A stretch of 32,190 nt of DNA from a virus, in the IMG/VR virus record IMGVR_UViG_3300027971_000150, positions 1-32,190 of that record, one strand, 5' to 3'. Both the position numbers and the translations under genes were made by a program. Positions 3,504 to 26,077 of this stretch are shown one piece after another. The stretch's first letter is position 1, and each line of letters opens with the position of its first letter. The notes under the pieces were generated by a model. It worked only from the letters and a program-made list of their open reading frames with translations, had not been told where the DNA came from and searched no databases.

Positions 3504-5164
3504 TGAGTCTATCGAAGCGAATCAAAGCAGCAGAGCAGAAGCGCACAAACAATAGCCAATGGGTCGAACCACTTATCCCAGGACGCCCTGCTTACATGGC
3601 CCCATCTGGAATCGACGTCAACGCAGACTCCGCCATCCGCATGTCAACAGTTTATGCATGCATCCGATTGCTTGGCGACACAATTTCTTCACTGCCACTT
3701 TCAGCATACGTTCGACGCGGCCGAAACAGACTCTCATATTCAAGCGTTTATGGATCGCAACCAGCATGGGTGAACAAGCCGAATCCAGAAGCATCGCGTG
3801 TGGAATTTTACGAGCAGATCATCGCTTCACTTAATATTCATGGTAACGCTTTCATTCTAACGGTTCGCGATGACATGGACGAAGTACAAGAGGTCTACTG
3901 CATCCACCCGGATGACATTCGAATCGAGCGACCACGTCCAGGCGAACCACTTATCTACAAGATGAAAGATCCAGAAGGAACCTTCTCGCGCATTCTTACA
4001 TCACGCGAAATGAAACACATTCCACTCTTCAGACTTCCAGGATCCATGTACGGCCTCGGCCCAATCGCAGCAGCTCGACTAACGATCGGTGCAGCGATGG
4101 CAGCAGACACATACGCAGCTGCATACTTCGGCAACGCGGCAAACCCTGGCGGCGTCATTGAAGTGCCGGGCGAATTAACAGAAGAGCAGGCAGGCGACAT
4201 CGGCCGCGATTGGAACATCACTCACACAGGGCCGTACCGCGCAGGCAAGATCGGAATCCTTTCAGGCGGCGCACAATTTAGACCGCTGACATTAAACGCC
4301 GCCGACGCACAGCTGCTAGAAGCCAGAAGATTCAACGTCGAAGACATCGCCCGATTATTCCGAGTCCCACTCAGCCTATTAGGACACCCGGTTGCAGGAG
4401 CTATGTCTTTTGCTAGTGTTGAAGCGCAAAACCTTTCATTCGTGCAGCATTCACTTCGCCCATTATTGGAACGAATTGAGCAATCACTTTCTGAATTACT
4501 TCCAGAACCGGACGGCTTCATCAAGTTCAACCTTGACGCATTGCTTCGCGGAACCACACTCGAGCGTTTCGATGCATACACAAAGGGCCTCCGCGAAGGT
4601 TTCCTATCACTCAACGACGTCCGCGCAGTCGAAGATTTAGCACCACTCGGAGAAGCAGGCGATCAATACAGAGTACCGCTGCAAAATATCGACGCAGCAG
4701 ATGCACCAGACGTCGGCCTGAAATTACGATCAGAGATCGCAGCAAGCCTGATCCAGGTCGGCTTCGATCCAAGTGCAGTAACAGAAGCGGTCGGATTACC
4801 ACCGATGGCTCACACAGGACTCCCATCAACGCAGCTGCAACAGATATCAACAATCGATCCAGCAGATCCGCAAAGCGCCTACGAAGTCAATTCAAGAGAA
4901 GCACGCAGCGAACAGCCGCACATGGTTCTACAAGTTCCAGAACCAACCGTCAACGTTGCAGCTCCAAATGTAACAATTGAACCGGCGATGGTTATGCTTG
5001 AGTCACCTCAAGTCAATGTTGAAGCGCCAAACGTAAGCGTTGATGCACCGACAGTAAATGTGACAAATACAATCGAGCGCAAGAGAGTCCGCAAGAAGAT
5101 CATCCGAGACGAAAACAATCTGATTGTTGAAGTCATTGAAGAATTTGTTGAAGGGGAAGAATAA
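3503..5164 (+). CDS. Portal protein, HK97 family, with repeat-rich C-terminus
   Basis: This 553-residue protein has the HK97-type portal signature: TVYACIRLLGDTISSLPL near residues 49-66, a later IHPDDIRI segment, and the GAMSFASVEAQNLSFVQHSLRPLLERIE helix region. Portal proteins form the dodecameric ring at one capsid vertex through which DNA enters and leaves. The last ~75 residues are unusual: short beta-type repeats of the form PxVNVxAPNV, ending in a charged KKIIRDENN tail. The gene overlaps its neighbours by one base at each end. The position after terminase supports the call. Confidence 0.93.
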   Translation: MSLSKRIKAAEQKRTNNSQWVEPLIPGRPAYMAPSGIDVNADSAIRMSTVYACIRLLGDTISSLPLSAYVRRGRNRLSYSSVYGSQPAWVNKPNPEASRVEFYEQIIASLNIHGNAFILTVRDDMDEVQEVYCIHPDDIRIERPRPGEPLIYKMKDPEGTFSRILTSREMKHIPLFRLPGSMYGLGPIAAARLTIGAAMAADTYAAAYFGNAANPGGVIEVPGELTEEQAGDIGRDWNITHTGPYRAGKIGILSGGAQFRPLTLNAADAQLLEARRFNVEDIARLFRVPLSLLGHPVAGAMSFASVEAQNLSFVQHSLRPLLERIEQSLSELLPEPDGFIKFNLDALLRGTTLERFDAYTKGLREGFLSLNDVRAVEDLAPLGEAGDQYRVPLQNIDAADAPDVGLKLRSEIAASLIQVGFDPSAVTEAVGLPPMAHTGLPSTQLQQISTIDPADPQSAYEVNSREARSEQPHMVLQVPEPTVNVAAPNVTIEPAMVMLESPQVNVEAPNVSVDAPTVNVTNTIERKRVRKKIIRDENNLIVEVIEEFVEGEE

Positions 5165-19059: not shown

Positions 19060-19314
19060 ATGGGCATTTCCACCCGTCAAGTCACCGTCACCACAGCAGC
19101 AACAGCACTTGTTGATGCAACGCAAGAAGCAGAGATGGTCTATCTTCACAGCTCAAGCGGCACATGCTTTGTGGGCAATTCAGATGTAACCTCAAGCACC
19201 GGATACAAGATGGATAACGGCGACAAGATCACGATTGAGAATAAAGCAAACGGAATCTGGGCAATCACCAGCTCGGGAACCGTCACGATGCAAGTGATGG
19301 CAATCGGCAAATGA
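19060..19314 (+). CDS. Small beta-rich virion-type protein
   Basis: This 84-residue all-beta protein (VTVTTAATALVDA, VYLHSSSGTCFVGNSDV, KITIENKANGIWAIT, TVTMQVMAIG) follows AAGGAGCCATA. It resembles small beta-sandwich proteins that decorate heads or tails, but I cannot assign it. It overlaps the next membrane protein gene by 4 bases (ATGA), linking tail and lysis genes in one transcript. Confidence 0.55.
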   Translation: MGISTRQVTVTTAATALVDATQEAEMVYLHSSSGTCFVGNSDVTSSTGYKMDNGDKITIENKANGIWAITSSGTVTMQVMAIGK

Positions 19315-19529
19315 CAGCCCAGGATTATGCAGCTCTGATTGTTTCGATCCTTACGATTGCCGGAGCATTTGCAGCGATAACTCGATGGCTCGTAAAGCAC
19401 TATTTGGCAGAATTGAAGCCCAATGGCGGCAGCTCGGTAAGCGATAGAATTTCAAGAGTGGAAAGCAGAGTCGACGAGATCTACAGCCTTCTATTGGAAA
19501 ACAACAGAAGCAAAGGGGGAAGAAAATGA
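19311..19529 (+). CDS. Membrane protein with C-terminal coiled coil, holin-like candidate
   Basis: This 72-residue protein has one hydrophobic span at about residues 6-26 (YAALIVSILTIAGAFAAITRWL) and a charged amphipathic helix after it (SDRISRVESRVDEIYSLLLEN), ending in a basic tail. Single-span proteins of this layout next to an endolysin are usually holin or holin-accessory proteins. It overlaps the endolysin gene by 4 bases. A second candidate holin lies after the endolysin, so which one forms the hole is open. Confidence 0.6.
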   Translation: MTAQDYAALIVSILTIAGAFAAITRWLVKHYLAELKPNGGSSVSDRISRVESRVDEIYSLLLENNRSKGGRK

Positions 19530-20029
19530 ACCAAAGAGACAAGATGATCCAGATCGCTCAAGCAGAGCTCGGATACATCGAAGGGCCAGCCGATAACCAG
19601 ACGAAATACCAGAAGGCAAACGTCGCATGGTGCGGCGCCTTCGTTAACTGGGTAGCAAAACAGGCCGGCGTAAGAATTCCAAACTGCGTCTACACCCCGG
19701 CAGGGGCGGTCGCCTTTATGGACAAGAACAAATGGCAAGATGCAGCTACGGCAACGCCAGAGCCAGGCGATATCGTCTTCTTTGATTTCCCAGGCGACGC
19801 GCTCGACCGGATCAGTCACGTAGGAATCGTGATCAAGGATAACGGCGACGGAACCGTCACCACGATTGAAGGCAACACCAGCCCCGATAAGAAGGGCGAT
19901 CAACGCAATGGCGGCGAAGTGTGCCGTAAGATCAGGGCGTACCAGAACAAGAACCGGGGCAAACTCAAGCCATCATTGGCCGTAGCCATTGTCGGCTTTG
20001 GGAAACCAACCTACAAGGAGACAGAATGA
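19526..20029 (+). CDS. Endolysin, CHAP amidase/peptidase
   Basis: This 167-residue protein has a CHAP domain over most of its length. The catalytic cysteine is in VAWCGAFVNWVAKQAG (C36), the histidine in ISHVGIV (H98), and the third polar position in TTIEGNTS (E115/N117). CHAP enzymes cut peptide cross-links or the amide bond of peptidoglycan. No separate cell-wall binding domain is visible; only a short basic tail follows. Its ribosome-binding site is AGGGGGAAG. Flanking membrane proteins supply access to the wall. Confidence 0.88.
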   Translation: MNQRDKMIQIAQAELGYIEGPADNQTKYQKANVAWCGAFVNWVAKQAGVRIPNCVYTPAGAVAFMDKNKWQDAATATPEPGDIVFFDFPGDALDRISHVGIVIKDNGDGTVTTIEGNTSPDKKGDQRNGGEVCRKIRAYQNKNRGKLKPSLAVAIVGFGKPTYKETE

Positions 20030-20220
20030 ACAAGCCAGCACTCGAAGCGATTATCAAGACATATCTACGAGCAGCAGCAGCTGCGGCCGTAGCTCTTTAT
20101 TTAGCAGATCCAAACCAGCCAGCGAAGAATTACTTGGTGGCAGGCTTAGCAGCAATCGCAGGGCCAGTCCTTAAGGCGCTAGATAGCAAAGCAACCGAAT
20201 TCGGACTCGGAGCAAAGTAG
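20026..20220 (+). CDS. Holin, small two-span type
   Basis: This 64-residue protein has two hydrophobic helices (about 13-26, AAAAAAVALYL, and 36-51, YLVAGLAAIAGPVLKAL) separated by a short polar turn (DPNQPAKN). This matches r1t-like small holins. Holins puncture the inner membrane at a set time so that the endolysin reaches the wall. The gene overlaps the endolysin gene by 4 bases. Confidence 0.72.
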   Translation: MNKPALEAIIKTYLRAAAAAAVALYLADPNQPAKNYLVAGLAAIAGPVLKALDSKATEFGLGAK

Positions 20221-20223
20221 TCG

Positions 20224-20487
20224 ATGAATCGGGGGGAAATTCTTGAAGAAGCAGCTCGACTCACAGCCAAAGATCGCCAGAAGACATATGGCGATCCAAC
20301 CGTCAACCATTGCAGAATTGCAGACTTATGGACGACATACCTGGAGCAGCAGATAACCCCACAGCAAGTGGCAATCTGCATGGCGCTCGTTAAAGTCGCA
20401 CGATTGATGGAAACAGAGACAGAAGACTCCTTCGTGGATTTAGCGGCATACGCAGCGATCGCCGGCGAGATTGCGACAAACAAATGA
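20224..20487 (+). CDS. DUF6378-like small phage protein
   Basis: This 87-residue helical protein begins with RGEILEEAARLTAKDRQKTYGDPTVNH, then IADLWTTYL, and AICMALVKVARL followed by DSFVDLAAYAAIAGEI. The pattern matches a small phage family (DUF6378) seen in many phages, with a helical layout that recalls MazG-like proteins. No biochemical role is established to my knowledge. It starts 3 bases after the holin gene and overlaps the next glycosyltransferase by 4 bases. Confidence 0.72.
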   Translation: MNRGEILEEAARLTAKDRQKTYGDPTVNHCRIADLWTTYLEQQITPQQVAICMALVKVARLMETETEDSFVDLAAYAAIAGEIATNK

Positions 20488-21161
20488 AGGAAATGATTAT
20501 CCTCGTTCCGACCAGAGGACGCCCGAGCAACGCGGTCGAATTGCTTGCAGAGCACTACAAACTTTCTACACATTCAGACATCCTCTTCATCATTGACGCA
20601 AACGATCCAGAGCATGACCAGTACGAATTTGAAGTAGGCGCTCACAAGTGCATGACGATCGAGAACGAAACCCGGGGCATGGCTTACCCGATCAACAAGG
20701 CAGCAAACGCGATCGTCAAAGAAAACAAATACCAATACTTCGCCTTCTTAGGCGATGACCACCGCCCACGCACAGCCGGGTGGGATGGCATTCTCATCCA
20801 GGCAATGCAACGGCGGCCGTCAATGGCCTACAGCAACGACTTGCTACAGGGAGAACGACTTCCAACCATGATCACGATGACCTCGGACATTGTTGCAGCT
20901 CTTAACGGCATGGTTCCGCCAAAGATGAAGCATTTATACCTTGATAACTTCTGGAAGAAACTAGGCCAGGATTTAGGAGCGCTGACTTATCTCGATCACG
21001 TTATCGTTGAACACATGCATCCGATCGCAGGCAAGGCAGAATGGGATGAGGGATACAAGGAAGTCAATGCAAATGAGATATACGCATTCGACGGCCTTGC
21101 TTATCAGAATTACATTCAGAGCGAAGCCTACGAATTACTCAAGCGCAAACTAAGGCCATGA
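20484..21161 (+). CDS. Glycosyltransferase-like protein (GT-A, family-2-like)
   Basis: This 225-residue protein starts with the typical strand MIILVPTRGRPSNAVELLAEH. Then come FIIDANDPEHD, an NKAANAIVKE helix, and the metal-binding type motif FLGDDHRPRT (GDD at 90-92). The C-terminal part contains LTYLDHVIVEHMHP, resembling the acceptor-side histidine region of related enzymes. It lies in a tight set of three sugar-related genes, overlapping both neighbours by 4 bases. The probable role is modifying a phage or host glycan; donor and acceptor are unknown. Confidence 0.78.
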   Translation: MKEMIILVPTRGRPSNAVELLAEHYKLSTHSDILFIIDANDPEHDQYEFEVGAHKCMTIENETRGMAYPINKAANAIVKENKYQYFAFLGDDHRPRTAGWDGILIQAMQRRPSMAYSNDLLQGERLPTMITMTSDIVAALNGMVPPKMKHLYLDNFWKKLGQDLGALTYLDHVIVEHMHPIAGKAEWDEGYKEVNANEIYAFDGLAYQNYIQSEAYELLKRKLRP

Positions 21162-21871
21162 AGCAGCTCATCGCATACTCTTTATACGGCAGCCAAGAGC
21201 GATACACGATCGGTGCGATCAAGAACGCAATTCTGGCCACCAGGCACTTCAAGGGATATACCCTGCGCTTCTACACCGGGGCCTCGGTTCCAGAATCAAT
21301 CAAGCAAATCCTTCGCCTCTTCCCCCACGTGCAGCTCGAAGAGCAGGATGGGCCAGAAGATCACAGAGCCAAACTCTGGAGATTTCAGGCTTTAACAGAT
21401 CCAGAATTTGACGTTGTTCTCAGCCGCGATGCAGACGCCAGGCTGACGCACCGAGAACGGATCGCGCACGAAGAGTTTCTAGCAAGCGGCCTCGATTTCC
21501 ACATTATGAAAGACCACCCCACAGGCCACAATTATCAGATCAGCGCCGGCATGTTTGCAGCTCGTACAAAGGCAATCCCGGCCCATTTGGATTATTACGA
21601 ACAAGGCGATTACTACACAGCAGACCAGGACTGGCTGGCGGCCCACATTTGGCCGTTGATCAAGGACGCAAGCCTGATCCACGATGAGAGCTACCAAACC
21701 CCCACAGAAGGACGCAGCAAGCGCCGGCCATTTCCCATTGCAAAGAAGGCAACCCTGCACCACATAGGGGCAGCTCTTGAAGCAGATGACCGCTTTCATT
21801 TCAGTAGCGACCAAGCGATCGCAAAGGCCGAATCAGGAAGCGACAAATACCTGGCAGAATGGCTCGTATGA
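21158..21871 (+). CDS. Glycosyltransferase-like protein, second of the cluster
   Basis: This 237-residue protein has an N-terminal IAYSLYGSQERYTIGAIKNA, then LRFYTGASVP, a helical WRFQALTDPEFD, and a VVLSRDADARL segment with the DAD motif at 91-93. The histidine-containing C-terminal part (ATLHHIGA) fits a metal-dependent glycosyltransferase. It is distinct in sequence from the preceding gene. It overlaps the epimerase start by an ATGA. Confidence 0.72.
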   Translation: MKQLIAYSLYGSQERYTIGAIKNAILATRHFKGYTLRFYTGASVPESIKQILRLFPHVQLEEQDGPEDHRAKLWRFQALTDPEFDVVLSRDADARLTHRERIAHEEFLASGLDFHIMKDHPTGHNYQISAGMFAARTKAIPAHLDYYEQGDYYTADQDWLAAHIWPLIKDASLIHDESYQTPTEGRSKRRPFPIAKKATLHHIGAALEADDRFHFSSDQAIAKAESGSDKYLAEWLV

Positions 21872-22731
21872 AAATCCTTATCACAGGAGATGCCGGCTTC
21901 GTTGGCCGCGCTTTCCACAGAGCGCTCGATAACAAAGGCCATGAGATCACCGGCATCGACATCGCAAACGGCCTAGATTGCAGAGATTTCTTCAAGAAGG
22001 ACGACACCAGATACGACGTCGTTATTCACCTTGCCGCGATCGTCGGTGGCCGCGCCTTGATTGAAGGCAACCCTTTGGCCGTTGCCAGCGACCTCGCGAT
22101 CGACAGCGACATGTTCCAATGGGCGGTAAGAACCAAACCAAAGCACCTCGTTTATTACAGCAGCTCGGCGGCTTACCCCATCTATTTACAAAGAGCCGCC
22201 TATAAGCAACGCCTTCGAGAAGGCGACATCAACCTCGATCACATTCGCACGCCAGACTTGAGCTACGGATGGTCAAAATTAACAGGCGAAACTTTAGCCG
22301 GATACGCCAGAGCAGAAGGCATCAACGTCACCGTCCTGCGGCCATTTAGCGGCTACGGATCCGATCAGGCCCTGGATTACCCATTCCCATCCTTGATCGC
22401 ACGCGGCAAAGCCAAACAGGAACCATTCGAAGTCTGGGGAACAGGCGAGCAAGTCCGCGACTTTATTCACATCGACGACGTGGTTGCAGCTACCTTCGAA
22501 GCGATTACCAATAAGGTTAAAACTTTGAACCTTTGCACCGGGCGAGCAACCTCATTCATCCAGCTCGCAGAGATGATCATGTTGCAGCAGGGATACCTCG
22601 CACCGATCAAGAAGCACCCCGGCAAGCCAAGCGGAGTCGAATACAGAGTCGGCGACCCCACGAAAATGTTGCAGATTTATGAACCAAAGATCAGCTTAGA
22701 AGAAGGAATCGCCAGAGCACTCGCACAATAA
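21868..22731 (+). CDS. NAD-dependent sugar epimerase/dehydratase (extended SDR)
   Basis: This is a 287-residue protein. The start at 21868 is preferred over 21859 because it makes the ATGA overlap used throughout this operon. The Rossmann motif GDAGFVG is at 7-13, an acidic residue D31 ends the second strand, SSS is at 98-100, and the catalytic YGWSK is at 133-137. This is the Y-x3-K pattern of enzymes acting on nucleotide sugars such as UDP-glucose 4-epimerases, dehydratases and GDP-fucose synthase. It probably makes or alters the donor sugar for the adjacent transferases. The substrate cannot be fixed from sequence. A strong terminator follows. Confidence 0.85.
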   Translation: MKILITGDAGFVGRAFHRALDNKGHEITGIDIANGLDCRDFFKKDDTRYDVVIHLAAIVGGRALIEGNPLAVASDLAIDSDMFQWAVRTKPKHLVYYSSSAAYPIYLQRAAYKQRLREGDINLDHIRTPDLSYGWSKLTGETLAGYARAEGINVTVLRPFSGYGSDQALDYPFPSLIARGKAKQEPFEVWGTGEQVRDFIHIDDVVAATFEAITNKVKTLNLCTGRATSFIQLAEMIMLQQGYLAPIKKHPGKPSGVEYRVGDPTKMLQIYEPKISLEEGIARALAQ

Positions 22732-22736
22732 GAAAA

Positions 22737-22768
22737 CCCCCCATCGCCGTCTACAAAGCGATGGGGGG
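22737..22768. terminator. Strong bidirectional terminator between convergent operons
   Basis: CCCCCCATCGC (22737-22747) and GCGATGGGGGG (22758-22768) form a perfect 11-bp stem with a 10-base loop. On the + strand it is followed by ATTTCT, and on the - strand by TTTTC. It lies 5 bases past the epimerase stop and 15 bases past the end of the leftward operon. It therefore fits termination from both sides. Confidence 0.85.
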
Positions 22769-22783
22769 ATTTCTGCATCCCTA

Positions 22784-23023
22784 TTACAGATCGGACGGAT
22801 CTCGAATCGGACGCATTATTCGAGCAATCTGCTGGTTGCCCCAAAAAACAAGCAACCAGTTCGGCAAGGTTGGGATTTTCAATTCTTTCTTTGGGAGCAG
22901 CACGATCAGGAAAGACCACAGGCCAAAGAAGAAGCCAAAGGCAAACCAGAACCAGATCCGGCGGCCATAGGCCAGCGCCAGGATCCCGGCAACAGGGGCA
23001 ATGAGAAGGTTCCACCAACTCAT
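22784..23023 (-). CDS. Small membrane protein, last gene of the leftward operon
   Basis: This 79-residue protein has two aromatic-rich hydrophobic spans (about residues 5-20 and 23-43; LLIAPVAGILALAYG and IWFWFAFGFFFGLWSFLIVLL), then a basic tail (PKKELKIPTLPNWLL, later RIMRPIRDP). Its ATG overlaps the stop of the ribbon-helix-helix gene (ATGA). Function is unknown. A membrane protein in an early-type accessory operon could affect the host envelope or exclude other phages, but the sequence does not show that. Confidence 0.65.
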   Translation of the reverse strand: MSWWNLLIAPVAGILALAYGRRIWFWFAFGFFFGLWSFLIVLLPKKELKIPTLPNWLLVFWGNQQIARIMRPIRDPSDL

Positions 23024-23151
23024 CGGACGTAGGCTTTCAGAGCATCCACAATGACCTCGCTGACTGATTTCTGATCAACAGCAGCCCGGGCCTTTACAGC
23101 AGCCCACAGCTGATCGGACACCCGGACAGAACGCGCCTTCTTAACGGCCAT
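23020..23151 (-). CDS. Ribbon-helix-helix (CopG/Arc-like) DNA-binding protein
   Basis: This 43-residue protein has a basic strand (KKARSVRVSD) followed by helix A (QLWAAVKARAAVDQ), a turn (KSV) and helix B (SEVIVDALKAYVR). This is the full ribbon-helix-helix pattern, in which dimers insert the strand pair into the major groove. The family acts as repressors or antitoxins. No toxin-like partner is evident, so an autoregulator or early switch is more likely than an antitoxin. The start codon lies inside the preceding gene (11-base overlap). Confidence 0.75.
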   Translation of the reverse strand: MAVKKARSVRVSDQLWAAVKARAAVDQKSVSEVIVDALKAYVR

Positions 23152-23308
23152 TAGAGATCACCTCGTCGATCATGACAGAGCAGGATCCGTAGCCAGAACC
23201 AGTCCAGCACAGATCGCGAGTGCCATAGGTCAAGGCCACCAGCACAAGCAAGGCAAGGACAAGGGCGACGCGACGACGACGGACAAACTTGCGATCCATT
23301 CTCATCAT
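23141..23308 (-). CDS. Membrane-anchored or exported peptide
   Basis: This 55-residue protein has a basic head (MMRMDRKFVRRRR), one hydrophobic helix (VALVLALLVLVALTYG, about 14-29) and a short outer part with two cysteines (DLCWTGSGYGSCSV) that could pair outside the membrane. The layout is that of a signal anchor or signal peptide. The start overlaps the previous stop (ATGA). Function is unknown. Confidence 0.6.
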   Translation of the reverse strand: MMRMDRKFVRRRRVALVLALLVLVALTYGTRDLCWTGSGYGSCSVMIDEVISNGR

Positions 23309-23472
23309 TCGCCTCTCAATGCAGCTAAATATGAAGGCAAGGCAGACAAGACATTCACCATGACCGCCTGCATCAATTCAGGATCCTGGCCCTGGGCCGC
23401 ATCGACAAGATTGCGACCAGCCAGTTCCATGCCATCGCTGATATCCATAAGAAGAGCTTTCATTGCAGCCAT
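23305..23472 (-). CDS. Small helical hypothetical protein
   Basis: This 55-residue, Met-rich, all-helical protein (AAMKALLMDISDGMELAGRN, then PELMQAVMVNVLSALPSYLAAL) has no cysteines and no clear membrane span. Its ATG follows immediately after the preceding gene and its stop overlaps the next start by 4 bases, so it is embedded in a co-translated series. No family is recognised. Confidence 0.55.
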   Translation of the reverse strand: MAAMKALLMDISDGMELAGRNLVDAAQGQDPELMQAVMVNVLSALPSYLAALRGE

Positions 23473-23595
23473 TTATTTATCCTCATTCGCTAATTGAGCC
23501 TCAAAGCAAGGCAGGCAGACGTTCATCTTCTCAACCGATCTAAATATTTCCTTGCATCCGATACAGACGCACTCATGCATTTCATACCAGCTCAT
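23473..23595 (-). CDS. Zinc-ribbon protein 2
   Basis: This is a 40-residue protein from the ATG at 23595. Two pairs of cysteines, CIGC near residue 11 and CLPC near 28, bind one zinc ion in the usual ribbon. The start overlaps the stop of the preceding Zn-ribbon gene (TGATG), which is why the longer in-frame start near 23664 was rejected. Such short ribbons often bind nucleic acids or proteins; the target is unknown. Confidence 0.62.
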   Translation of the reverse strand: MSWYEMHECVCIGCKEIFRSVEKMNVCLPCFEAQLANEDK

Positions 23596-23726
23596 CACTT
23601 TGTCGCCGTTCTGTAATTGCAGCCCGGGCATTCTTGGAAATGCATAAACTTGCCACGATCCCAAACATAGATCGAGCAGCCATGCATTTCAGTTTGGCAC
23701 TTAGGACAGAGATTCTTTGTAGCCAT
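23595..23726 (-). CDS. Zinc-ribbon protein 1, first gene of the leftward operon
   Basis: This 43-residue protein has CPKC at 7-10 and CPGC at 33-36, separated by 22 residues with aromatic strands (CSIYVWDRGKFMHF). This is a classic zinc ribbon of the transcription-factor type. The ATG at 23726 is preceded on the minus strand by GGGGGTAATAAA, the window's characteristic ribosome-binding motif, so this is the operon's first gene. It may interact with RNA polymerase or nucleic acid. Confidence 0.68.
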   Translation of the reverse strand: MATKNLCPKCQTEMHGCSIYVWDRGKFMHFQECPGCNYRTATK

Positions 23727-23978
23727 TTTATTACCCCCACCGGCTGAGACATTCGCTCCTTGCCGATAAGAGAATCTTGGCATACGTATGGACGAACAGC
23801 AATACGAAACAAGCAAAATGAAAGTGAACTCCTGCGGTGTTATTCCTGTGAAAGCCAGGGCCACAGGCGTGGAATAGGCACTAGAAGCCGGCAAACGGCG
23901 TGTCGGCCACCGATCAGGGCCAGCGCAAGGCACAATAAGCCGACCAGGGCCACAGGCCCACCAAACAAGGGGGAACCA
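23727..23978. other. Divergent intergenic region between leftward and rightward early operons
   Basis: This 252-base region holds the two divergent ribosome-binding motifs at its ends. Promoters for both operons must lie here or further out, but no hexamer pair is convincing. TTGCCG at 23760 has a weak TACGTA 17 bases downstream. A 29-codon frame (23788-23877) exists without a ribosome-binding site. The right half is rich in GGCCAC/CAGGCC-type repeats (CAGGGCCACAGG occurs twice, near 23856 and 23945). A regulatory region or operator array is plausible. Confidence 0.5.
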
Positions 23979-24137
23979 ATGCAAACGCAATACCTGATCT
24001 TCGCCGGGGCCATAGCCGCCTGCGGAATCCTTTATTTATTACTCAAGGTCGGAGACGATCCGATTGCCAAAGAGATCCAAGAAGCACAGCAATACGAAGG
24101 CAAGCAGAAGCGGATCAAGAAGGCGCTCGAAAAATGA
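23979..24137 (+). CDS. Small single-span membrane protein
   Basis: This is a 52-residue protein from the ATG at 23979, chosen because AGGGGGAACC precedes it. It has one hydrophobic helix (residues 5-23, YLIFAGAIAACGILYLLLK) followed by a charged soluble helix (IAKEIQEAQQYEGKQKRIKKALEK). This N-out/C-in type anchor with a charged helix is often found at the head of phage early operons. Function is unknown. The stop overlaps the next start (ATGA). Confidence 0.6.
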   Translation: MQTQYLIFAGAIAACGILYLLLKVGDDPIAKEIQEAQQYEGKQKRIKKALEK

Positions 24138-24472
24138 GTTTAGATCGACGCCCATTGTTTTCAGTACACACAAACGGCGAAGGGCGGATTGCTTTATATT
24201 TAGAAGAGCAAGATGCCGTTCTTGACCTGCTTGAAGAAGCAGGCAAAGAAGCAAACGGCGACTACATCGCAGCTTTGCATCGAGCATCTTATATAAATCA
24301 AATTTCACCAGACAGCAGCGAGTGGCTCGAGTACGAAAGAATGCGTCAGATTCTCCCGGCGACAGTTTTGCTGATCGCATCAATGACAGAGAACGAAGCG
24401 CTCGATTTAGCACAGGACATCGTGCGCAACGTTGCAGCTCGCAGAACCCCACGATTGGAGATCGTAAAGTAA
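24134..24472 (+). CDS. Hypothetical early protein
   Basis: This 112-residue protein is mostly helical, with an initial strand pair (FSVHTNGEGRIALYLEEQ) and a TVLLIASMTENEALDLAQDIV helix. It is acidic overall. I do not recognise the family. It sits between the membrane protein and the resolvase-like nuclease in a tightly packed operon. Confidence 0.6.
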   Translation: MSLDRRPLFSVHTNGEGRIALYLEEQDAVLDLLEEAGKEANGDYIAALHRASYINQISPDSSEWLEYERMRQILPATVLLIASMTENEALDLAQDIVRNVAARRTPRLEIVK

Positions 24473-24473
24473 A

Positions 24474-24824
24474 ATGGCAAATCCAAACGGACGCAAAGGC
24501 GCACTCTTCGAAACAGATGTAATGCGATGGTTGCGATCCGTTGGAGCAATTGCAGAACGACTCACCAAAGCCGGCAGCAAAGACGAAGGCGACATCGTCG
24601 CGATCGTTGCAGGCAAGACATACATCCTGGAATTAAAGAATCGAAAGAACATCTCACTCCCGGCGTTCTGGGAAGAAGCAACCACAGAAGCAAACAATTA
24701 TGCGAAGGCCAGAGGATTAGAACAAACTCCACCGGCATACGTCATAATTAAACGACGCAACGCAGGAATTGAAAAGGCCTGGGTTGTTGAGAATTTGGAG
24801 CAATGGGTAAAGCGCAATGATTAG
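24474..24824 (+). CDS. PD-(D/E)XK nuclease, Holliday-junction-resolvase-like
   Basis: This is a 116-residue protein. The N-terminus reads GRKGALFETDVMRWLRSVG with E13. Then come KAGSKDEGDIVAI (D40) and YILELKNRKN with the E53-x-K55 pair. These form the PD-(D/E)XK active site. The short length and layout match the resolvase-like nucleases of actinophages, thought to process branched replication or recombination DNA before packaging. It overlaps the WhiB gene by 8 bases. Confidence 0.78.
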   Translation: MANPNGRKGALFETDVMRWLRSVGAIAERLTKAGSKDEGDIVAIVAGKTYILELKNRKNISLPAFWEEATTEANNYAKARGLEQTPPAYVIIKRRNAGIEKAWVVENLEQWVKRND

Positions 24825-25281
24825 AACCAAACACTTCTTACCATTTGTGCAGCTCTTCGAAAATGCAGCATGCGCCGAATTAGAGGATCTAGATTATTTC
24901 TTCCCGGAAGGGAATGCAGAAGAGGCAAAGCGCCTCCCCAAACTTCGCGCCATCTGCGGAGCTTGTATAGAAAGAAAGGAATGCTTGGCATACGCCATCA
25001 AAGAAGAGATCCCATTTGGCATCTGGGGCGGCAAGACGCCGACCGAGAGGGGCCATAACTTGAAGCGAAATGAGAAAATAGAGCGACAGAAGCTCATCAT
25101 CAAACTTCGCGATCAAGGAATCTCTACCGAAGAGATCGCCACGAAAATAGGCATCAGGACGACTCAGGTATATCGAGTCTTTACTGAAGCAAACAAGGCG
25201 AGAAAGCGAGAAGACCAATCAAACCAGCAGACAAATACAGCGTGCGCAGATTTGCCGTCATCGTTGGAATCAGCGCAATGA
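24817..25281 (+). CDS. whiB-like: WhiB-family Fe-S protein with C-terminal HTH
   Basis: This is a 154-residue protein. The four WhiB cysteines are C19, C47, C50 and C56 (CxxC plus C at +6), followed by the GIWGGKTPTER turn. WhiB proteins hold a [4Fe-4S] cluster and bind the principal sigma factor to alter transcription; they are restricted to actinobacteria and their phages, which dates the host group. Unlike most phage WhiBs, this one continues with a helix-turn-helix region (GISTEEIATKIGIRTTQVYRVF, about 108-129) and a basic, then polar tail. It overlaps the exported lytic protein by 40 bases. Confidence 0.88.
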   Translation: MIRTKHFLPFVQLFENAACAELEDLDYFFPEGNAEEAKRLPKLRAICGACIERKECLAYAIKEEIPFGIWGGKTPTERGHNLKRNEKIERQKLIIKLRDQGISTEEIATKIGIRTTQVYRVFTEANKARKREDQSNQQTNTACADLPSSLESAQ

Positions 25282-25664
25282 CCAGCACGATCGCAAGCAC
25301 AGCCCTAAATCCAACCCCGGCAATCCCGGTGGTTTACACCGAGCGCACAGCGATCCAGAACATAGATCCAAAGCAGCTCGCCAAAGAATTGCTGGAACCA
25401 CAGCAATACAAATGTTTCACTCAGCTCGTCGGCCGCGAAAGCGCCTGGCGATCAGTAAACAATCCAACATCAAGCGCAGCAGGCGTGGGCCAACTCCTCG
25501 CCGGCACATACAAGAATCTAGGAATGCGACACCCCGAGAGCCGGGTCACACAAACTATCGCAGCTCTAGCGTATATTGGACGAAAATACGGATCCGGTGG
25601 CCCTTGCGCAGCTTGGAAACATTGGAAACGCCAAAAGCAAAAGACCGGCTACGGCTGGTATTAA
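25242..25664 (+). CDS. Exported lytic transglycosylase-like protein
   Basis: This is a 140-residue protein from GTG (25242). The start is supported by a signal-peptide-like N-terminus: basic MRR, then a hydrophobic stretch (FAVIVGISAMT), and a small-residue Ala/Ser region. The mature part has the lysozyme-like SLT core: GRESAWR with catalytic E66, then SSAAGVGQLL, and later a KYGSGGPCAAWKHW region. SLT enzymes cut the glycan strand of peptidoglycan. It is far from the lysis genes and lies in the early operon next to WhiB, so it may act in wall remodelling, entry-linked superinfection effects, or late lysis. Confidence 0.75.
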   Translation: MRRFAVIVGISAMTSTIASTALNPTPAIPVVYTERTAIQNIDPKQLAKELLEPQQYKCFTQLVGRESAWRSVNNPTSSAAGVGQLLAGTYKNLGMRHPESRVTQTIAALAYIGRKYGSGGPCAAWKHWKRQKQKTGYGWY

Positions 25665-25673
25665 GGGGGAACA

Positions 25674-25994
25674 ATGAGCACAGAAGGAAGCATCGGCATC
25701 GTCGACTTTGACGATGGCATCGCGCAATGGCTACAGCAATACAAACATGCCAAAGAAGAGATCGCACGATGGGAAGAGATTGCAGATATCGCCAGATCGC
25801 ATCTTGAAAATGCAATGGGCGATGCAGAGACAGCTCTCTACGAAAACAAACCGGTTGTCAGATGGACACGCGTCGAAAGCCGACGCTTTGATACAAAGAA
25901 GGCACGCGAAATCTTGCCACAGCAAGTGATCGACGTCCTCGAAGTCGTCAGCATGAGCAGACGCTTCACACTTGTCGATCAGGATCAGACATGA
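25674..25994 (+). CDS. Small protein resembling the C-terminal part of YqaJ-type recombinases
   Basis: This 106-residue protein is preceded by AGGGGGAACA. It has a helix with EEIARWEEIADIARSHLENAMGDAETAL, then VVRWTRVESRRFDTKKAREILPQQV, and a final MSRRFTLVD. That second half matches the C-terminal region usually attached to YqaJ exonucleases. Here the nuclease is a separate gene two genes downstream, and that protein is of the RecB/Cas4 kind. It probably partners with that nuclease. Confidence 0.62.
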   Translation: MSTEGSIGIVDFDDGIAQWLQQYKHAKEEIARWEEIADIARSHLENAMGDAETALYENKPVVRWTRVESRRFDTKKAREILPQQVIDVLEVVSMSRRFTLVDQDQT

Positions 25995-26077
25995 GCCTGC
26001 CCACAATTTTGCCGTCGATCGACGTTCCAGAGGTTCCAACTTGGCCCTACGAAGACGAAGAAGAGGACGACGAATAA
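25991..26077 (+). CDS. 28-residue acidic peptide
   Basis: This short frame starts with an ATGA overlap to the preceding gene and ends directly at the start of the nuclease gene (TAA then ATG). The peptide is proline-rich at first (PTILPSIDVPEVPTWPY) and ends in nine residues of which eight are Asp or Glu. The clean joins on both sides favour a real gene. The role is unknown; an acidic tail like this might bind the adjacent DNA-binding proteins. Confidence 0.55.
   Translation: MSLPTILPSIDVPEVPTWPYEDEEEDDE

Follow-up and report, generated by a model that had tools for sequence, protein, structure and literature searches.

Structured leader RNA, constant four-gene core and variable small genes in a leftward operon of probable aquatic actinobacteriophages

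A compact block of very small leftward genes, whose annotated neighbours (annotated genes only, not every minus-strand ORF) all read rightward, raises the question whether these frames are genuine genes and what such an operon may do for the virus. The window, i.e., the whole stretch of DNA analysed here, is a single IMG/VR record of 32,190 bases, over which a search for end repeats found none. Its gene set is siphovirus-like, with a WhiB-family gene, and since the large terminase is closest to that of Pontimonas phage phiPsal1 (MG835450, 49% identity), the host is probably an aquatic actinobacterium. Searches of GenBank phages, by megablast with positions 20000-26000 and with the g6 protein, gave no matches.

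The same neighbours flank the block in every locus of sufficient length. On the terminator side, the lysis genes, two glycosyltransferase-like genes and an epimerase gene all read towards the terminator, and on the other side g7, g8, a Hjc-type resolvase, WhiB, a transglycosylase-like gene, an exonuclease and a primase read away from the block. The two glycosyltransferase-like genes and the nucleotide-sugar epimerase gene (20484-22731), situated between the lysis genes and the leftward operon, are kept group-wide. The transglycosylase-like protein is encoded among the early genes (25242-25664), distant from the lysis cassette, and a ParB-like domain fused to a DNA methyltransferase is encoded at 72-1397, beside the small terminase gene.

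All six leftward ORFs proposed in a preliminary description of 22784-23726 are present at these coordinates and encode proteins of 40-79 aa (Table 1). The tight joints described there were found as well, but not the spacings of 0-11 bases: in locus L003, whose six proteins match those of the window exactly and from which the lengths were taken, the junctions are overlaps or exact contact of 1, 0, 4, 11, and 4 nt. A search of IMG/VR with g6 yielded 67 loci, tblastn with all six proteins showed that almost all of these share the gene order, and the full operon, from leader to g6, was mapped in 54 loci. Comparison of gene order in these related phages showed that g3-g4-g5-g6 is kept in 51 of 54 operons and g4-g5-g6 in all 54; a few operons carry small genes inserted between g4 and g5 or between g3 and g4. 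The block is a single operon as described, but instead of a fixed six-gene module it consists of a four-gene core and two accessory Zn-ribbon genes, g1 and g2. All six families are conserved in kept synteny and are under purifying selection, with pooled dN/dS values of 0.17 (g1), 0.14 (g2), 0.25 (g3), 0.21 (g4), 0.13 (g5), and 0.16 (g6), and the frames are thus genuine genes.

Table 1. Features of the leftward operon and its putative control region (positions in the window).
Feature	Position	Strand	Description
Putative -35 TTGCTG	23797..23802	-	TGGTCA in some relatives; 17 nt from -10
GT-N4-AC	23786..23793	-	In promoter spacer; candidate g5 operator
Putative -10 CAAGAT	23774..23779	-	TAAGTT in class B relatives
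5'-leader RNA hairpin	23739..23767	-	AUCGGC-AAG-GAG-CGAAUGU-CUC-A-GCCGGU; starts at putative +1
g1	23595..23726	-	Zn-ribbon-type, 43 aa; accessory, family F11, 12/54 operons; weak Pfam match Zn_ribbon_TFIIB
g2	23473..23595	-	CxxC...CxxC protein, 40 aa; accessory, family F7, 20/54 operons
g3	23305..23472	-	Two-helix hairpin protein, 55 aa; core, 51/54; AlphaFold2 mean pLDDT 95
g4	23141..23308	-	Single-TM, 55 aa, Arg-rich N-terminus, conserved cysteine pair after TM; core, 54/54
g5	23020..23151	-	Arc-like ribbon-helix-helix, 43 aa; core, 54/54; PHROG 6506, E 1e-10
g6	22784..23023	-	Two-TM hairpin + amphipathic helix, end IRDPSDL, 79 aa; core, 54/54; AlphaFold2 pLDDT 73
Intrinsic terminator, bidirectional	22737..22768	-	12-bp stem, T-run; probably common to operon and convergent epimerase gene

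The operon ends at the shared terminator named in the preliminary description, the strongest hairpin of the region. A terminator hairpin with T-run was observed in all 54 operons and an A-run on its opposite side in 52 of them; due to this A-run flank, the terminator probably also serves the convergent epimerase gene. At the other end of the operon, the elements of a putative promoter, namely a -35 box (TTGCTS or TGGTCA), a 17-base spacer and a -10 box, occur at fixed positions in 47 distinct sequences; a generic sigma-70 scan did not flag it. Within the spacer, GT and AC of the GT-N4-AC motif are invariant in 54 of 54 operons and the remaining bases vary, and from these sequences we infer a candidate site for the RHH protein g5.

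Further elements were noticed in the divergent region. The stretch between the two divergent promoters (23840-23920) contains two conserved boxes, GCGTG and CGGCGTGGC, and in many relatives, but not in the window, also a perfect DnaA-box-like TTATCCACA. A small hairpin, GGGCC-ACA-GGCCC (23947-23959, within 23930-23978), apparently is located on the rightward transcript directly before a GGGGG Shine-Dalgarno sequence, and a similar GGCC...GGCC element is retained in relatives. A consensus structure computed over the rightward side of the region gave no convincing covariation.

Upstream of the first gene, whichever gene stands first, a nearly invariant sequence was observed. Its class A pattern occurs in 37 viral stretches, with a single copy in the window, and except for L087, where the leader lies at the contig end, all class A sources are contigs from which g6 was recovered too. 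A covariance model built from 29 copies matches 56 of 58 sources, the misses being L012, whose contig starts close to g3, and phiPsal1 (L070). The leader forms a two-helix hairpin, in which all 198 of 198 cells are standard pairs (22 distinct model sequences), compared to 26-47% for slid partners. Three sequence classes (A, B, and C) have the same shape and differ by compensatory changes in both helices, i.e., AU/GC, CG/GU, and CG/UA in the outer helix and, in class B, AU/GC in the inner helix; by these changes the element is a structured cis-acting leader RNA. L013 and L060 are chimeras, with the outer helix of class B and the inner helix of class A, and the outer helix is one base short in L044 and in three contigs nearly identical to it. 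In both major classes the first paired base is located six bases behind the putative -10 (CAAGAT or TAAGTT), and due to this distance transcription most likely starts at the first base of the hairpin. The leader occurs once per genome, except for L006 with two copies in one operon (4160-4210 and 5090-5139), of which the second is nested among cassettes.

No Rfam family was matched in the window at the gathering cutoff, and at E values up to 10 only chance-level matches were obtained, none of them at the leader, which is thus without match in Rfam 15. Other explanations of the conserved sequence were considered. A coding mini-ORF (AUG UCU CAG CCG ...) was rejected, as the number of G residues (5 or 6), and with it the reading frame, differs from locus to locus and no AUG is present in class B, and a DNA palindrome or operator is less likely given that 17 of 171 pairs are G-U. 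A nearest-neighbour test over 21 genes revealed no clear class-specific partner protein of the leader.

Between leader and core, 1-7 small genes are situated, and in the window this slot holds just g1 and g2. Together with the core, about 34 families were distinguished, thirteen of them single; a 35th, F23, is an artefact arising from read-through of the second leader of L006. The variable families occur mostly in the promoter-proximal slot and the four fixed core genes are distal. Many accessory proteins contain CxxC pairs, and g1 and g2 are Zn-ribbon-type CxxC proteins, in good agreement with the two zinc ribbons described previously. Nearly all families tested were without match in PHROGs, Pfam, NCBIfam, and PADLOC. 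None of the accessory or core proteins tested matched a defence or anti-defence family, the only PADLOC match being one of g1 to one end of Cas12a at chance level (E 0.046).

Accessory genes that are unrelated to each other nevertheless have a common gene joint, AAGGNGGTNGCATAATG, with the typical form AAGG-NGG-TNGC-A-TAATG. As the joint is translated, different families share the same C-terminal tail (KAGA, KVGA, KAVA, KVVA, and similar), which was found in 15 of 35 families but in only 1 of the 38 long ORFs that read rightward in the window. In L035, family F29 is inserted between g4 and g5 and ends with ADGR, close to the end of g4 (SDGR or SNGR), which suggests a duplication of the joint. 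The two commonest accessory families have higher dN/dS values (F6 0.41, F5 0.39) than the core (0.13-0.25), and this faster evolution would be as expected of host-facing genes; the other accessory families, i.e., F8 (0.20), F9 (0.22), g1, and g2, are no faster than the core.

With respect to the core, structure prediction by AlphaFold2 bears out the helical protein of the preliminary description, since g3 is a confident two-helix hairpin. The two membrane proteins are supported as well, since g4 and g6 are predicted as such. A fold search with g3 in the PDB gave no match with E < 0.001, and its helical hairpin matches many unrelated chains. L142 and L154 contain distant homologues of g3, in a rightward operon that directly follows the lysis genes; a small HTH gene and a gene for a membrane protein adjoin the homologue. 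Both loci (L142:1812-2336 and L154:4998-5679) belong to another phage group, the companion genes encode a MerR/excisionase-like HTH protein and a TM protein, and the homologue of L154 has about 50 extra C-terminal residues. The topology of g4 is predicted from the positive-inside rule. In g6, a two-TM hairpin is followed by a third helix and the invariant end PSDL, and a fold search in BFVD revealed no match with E < 0.001. The likeness of g6 or g4 to a T4 Imm-like superinfection exclusion protein concerns size and two-TM shape only.

The remaining core protein, g5, was correctly described as a ribbon-helix-helix protein. It matches PHROG 6506 (E 9.9e-11) and Pfam RHH_1 (E 7e-4, 0.6 bit below the curated cutoff), and by its significant profile match and the conserved strand SVRVSD it is a member of this known family. 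It is promoter-distal and nearly invariant, with 92% mean column identity, and its alleles correlate weakly with the leader and promoter class. It is a candidate regulator, but to regard it as the sole one would be too strong, since the WhiB-family protein encoded at 24817-25281 carries an extra C-terminal HTH domain and is a second candidate. As in Arc-like and other RHH phage repressors, domain match and strand SVRVSD are present in g5; it differs from the Arc-like repressors in its position, third in the four-gene core of an operon that also encodes membrane proteins, and in having an operator that is only a candidate. P22 Arc binds an operator between -35 and -10, which is also where the candidate g5 site is located.

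What the operon is for was weighed against several alternatives. In an immunity or lysis-lysogeny decision module, g5 would be a prophage repressor and the operon the immunity region of a temperate phage. Such a role, raised in the preliminary description, would fit a leftward block in mid-genome that adjoins the early promoter region and encodes an Arc-like protein, as well as the leftward cI/cro-type HTH gene at the same place in the related isolate phiPsal1. However, immunity repressors usually diversify, and g5 is promoter-distal and nearly invariant. Tyrosine and serine integrases (PF00589, PF00239) were absent from 14 related records, in which the positive controls worked; five of the relatives are 31-33 kb long and most records are possibly incomplete. 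Neither leader nor g6 was found in 84,980 bacterial and archaeal genomes, searched for exact matches to the class A pattern and for conserved peptide patterns, and phiPsal1, the nearest sequenced isolate, was judged lytic (PMC6106888). Due to this lack of any sign of lysogeny, by integrase or in host genomes, the decision-module reading is unsupported, and we regard it as very unlikely. Still less credible is a plasmid-like maintenance or toxin-antitoxin module with g5 as a ParG/Omega- or ParD-like protein. The best PDB match of g5 is indeed the plasmid protein Omega and the phage encodes a ParB-like domain, but the former match is non-significant (E 0.77), the latter domain is part of a DNA methyltransferase fusion at the packaging end, no ParA was seen in the annotated gene set, no toxin family was matched, and g5, at 43 aa, offers scant space for a toxin-binding tail. 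Two small membrane proteins in one operon close to the lysis cassette, one of them shaped as a two-TM hairpin, might instead point to a lysis-timing (holin/antiholin) or envelope-damage system formed by g6 and g4. Yet an endolysin and two small hydrophobic proteins are encoded on the other strand in a separate lysis cassette (19311-20220) that is conserved separately, which renders a holin role of g6 unlikely; g6 moreover matches no holin family and was rejected as a holin on both grounds, and for the two proteins together we consider the lysis or envelope-damage reading quite improbable.

A further alternative concerns the leader, which may be a specific RNA switch or signal rather than mainly an mRNA stabiliser, i.e., a translational operator bound by a protein encoded in the operon or a factor-independent antiterminator of the kind known from the put RNA of phage HK022. 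The loop and internal-loop bases of class A, AARGAGCGAAUGUCUCA, are nearly invariant, more so than a simple stabilising hairpin needs, and classes A, B, and C, with the two chimeras, resemble alternative specificities. On the other hand, no gene clearly tracks the leader class, as differences within and between classes are small and largest for the leader-proximal genes, and an internal terminator that would require antitermination was not seen in the operon of the window. We hold this reading to be rather doubtful. A broader proposal, a cassette platform in which a start-site RNA hairpin of changeable classes, a standard joint and a fixed distal core take up unrelated tiny anti-host genes and the leader is a regulatory RNA recognised in trans, is a real but minor possibility.

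Tentatively, and with nearly even confidence, we favour a constant-plus-variable leftward early operon of an aquatic actinobacteriophage group, which would serve host takeover and be autoregulated by g5. Its position divergent from the replication genes and its modular accessory genes argue for an early, host-directed operon, and it is from position and divergence that we infer the early timing. In this early operon, one promoter would fire leftward from the divergent control region and, judging from covariation and promoter spacing, the transcript would start with the folded 5' hairpin. The probable role of the hairpin is to protect the 5' end and to give translation a uniform start from the G-rich Shine-Dalgarno sequence just behind it, so that whichever gene follows would be well expressed. 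The 1-7 interchangeable tiny genes, linked by a standard Shine-Dalgarno/stop-start joint, could be gained or lost without breaking coupled translation. They would be followed by the constant 3' part, composed of the helical hairpin g3, the membrane proteins g4 and g6, and the RHH protein g5. The likeliest role of g5 is repression of its own promoter at GT-N4-AC, by which the operon would be silenced following an early burst. Host or defence factors are the probable targets of the accessory proteins, and g4 and g6 probably act at the envelope, e.g., in superinfection exclusion. The host-interaction role put forward in the preliminary description is plausible.

Little is known of the phages that infect the abundant aquatic Actinobacteria, and hardly any of their small genes has been assigned a function. 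With its constant address, promoter, RNA tag and gene joint, the operon offers a means of retrieving from metagenomes, and of testing, about 34 families of tiny proteins that are candidates for acting on the host or its defences. Its covarying leader, with which the phage message begins, is a regulatory RNA amenable to testing.

Both the leader RNA and the fixed-frame cassette layout appear to be undescribed in the literature and databases searched, among which no paper on put RNA or hypervariable early operons was found. The nearest published idea to the leader is that of the SAS/ESAS elements of cluster K mycobacteriophages, short conserved elements located where translation starts in non-structural genes that belong to different families (PMC3203893). 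SAS is a 13-bp sequence with 11-19 copies per genome that overlaps the Shine-Dalgarno sequence; the ESAS consensus differs between subgroups, and the authors found little support for an RNA hairpin in its inverted repeats (PMC3203893). Both SAS/ESAS and the leader are conserved elements before genes of differing families in actinobacteriophages. Unlike SAS/ESAS, the leader occurs in one copy per genome (two in L006) instead of being repeated before many genes, lies at the putative transcription start and covaries as RNA, and the 13-bp SAS, GGGATAGGAGCCC, is not contained in it. With phiPsal1, the window shares the genome size (31 kb in phiPsal1), the overall layout and a leftward gene between lysis and early genes, but in phiPsal1 this is a single cI/cro-type HTH gene and the leader RNA model has no match. 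The early regions of T4 and the 0.3-0.7 genes of T7 contain small, fast-turnover genes behind strong early promoters, which encode antagonists of the host and its defences. Compared to these, the operon described here is distinguished by its fixed leader RNA, its standard joint and its fixed 3' core, which together frame the variable slot.
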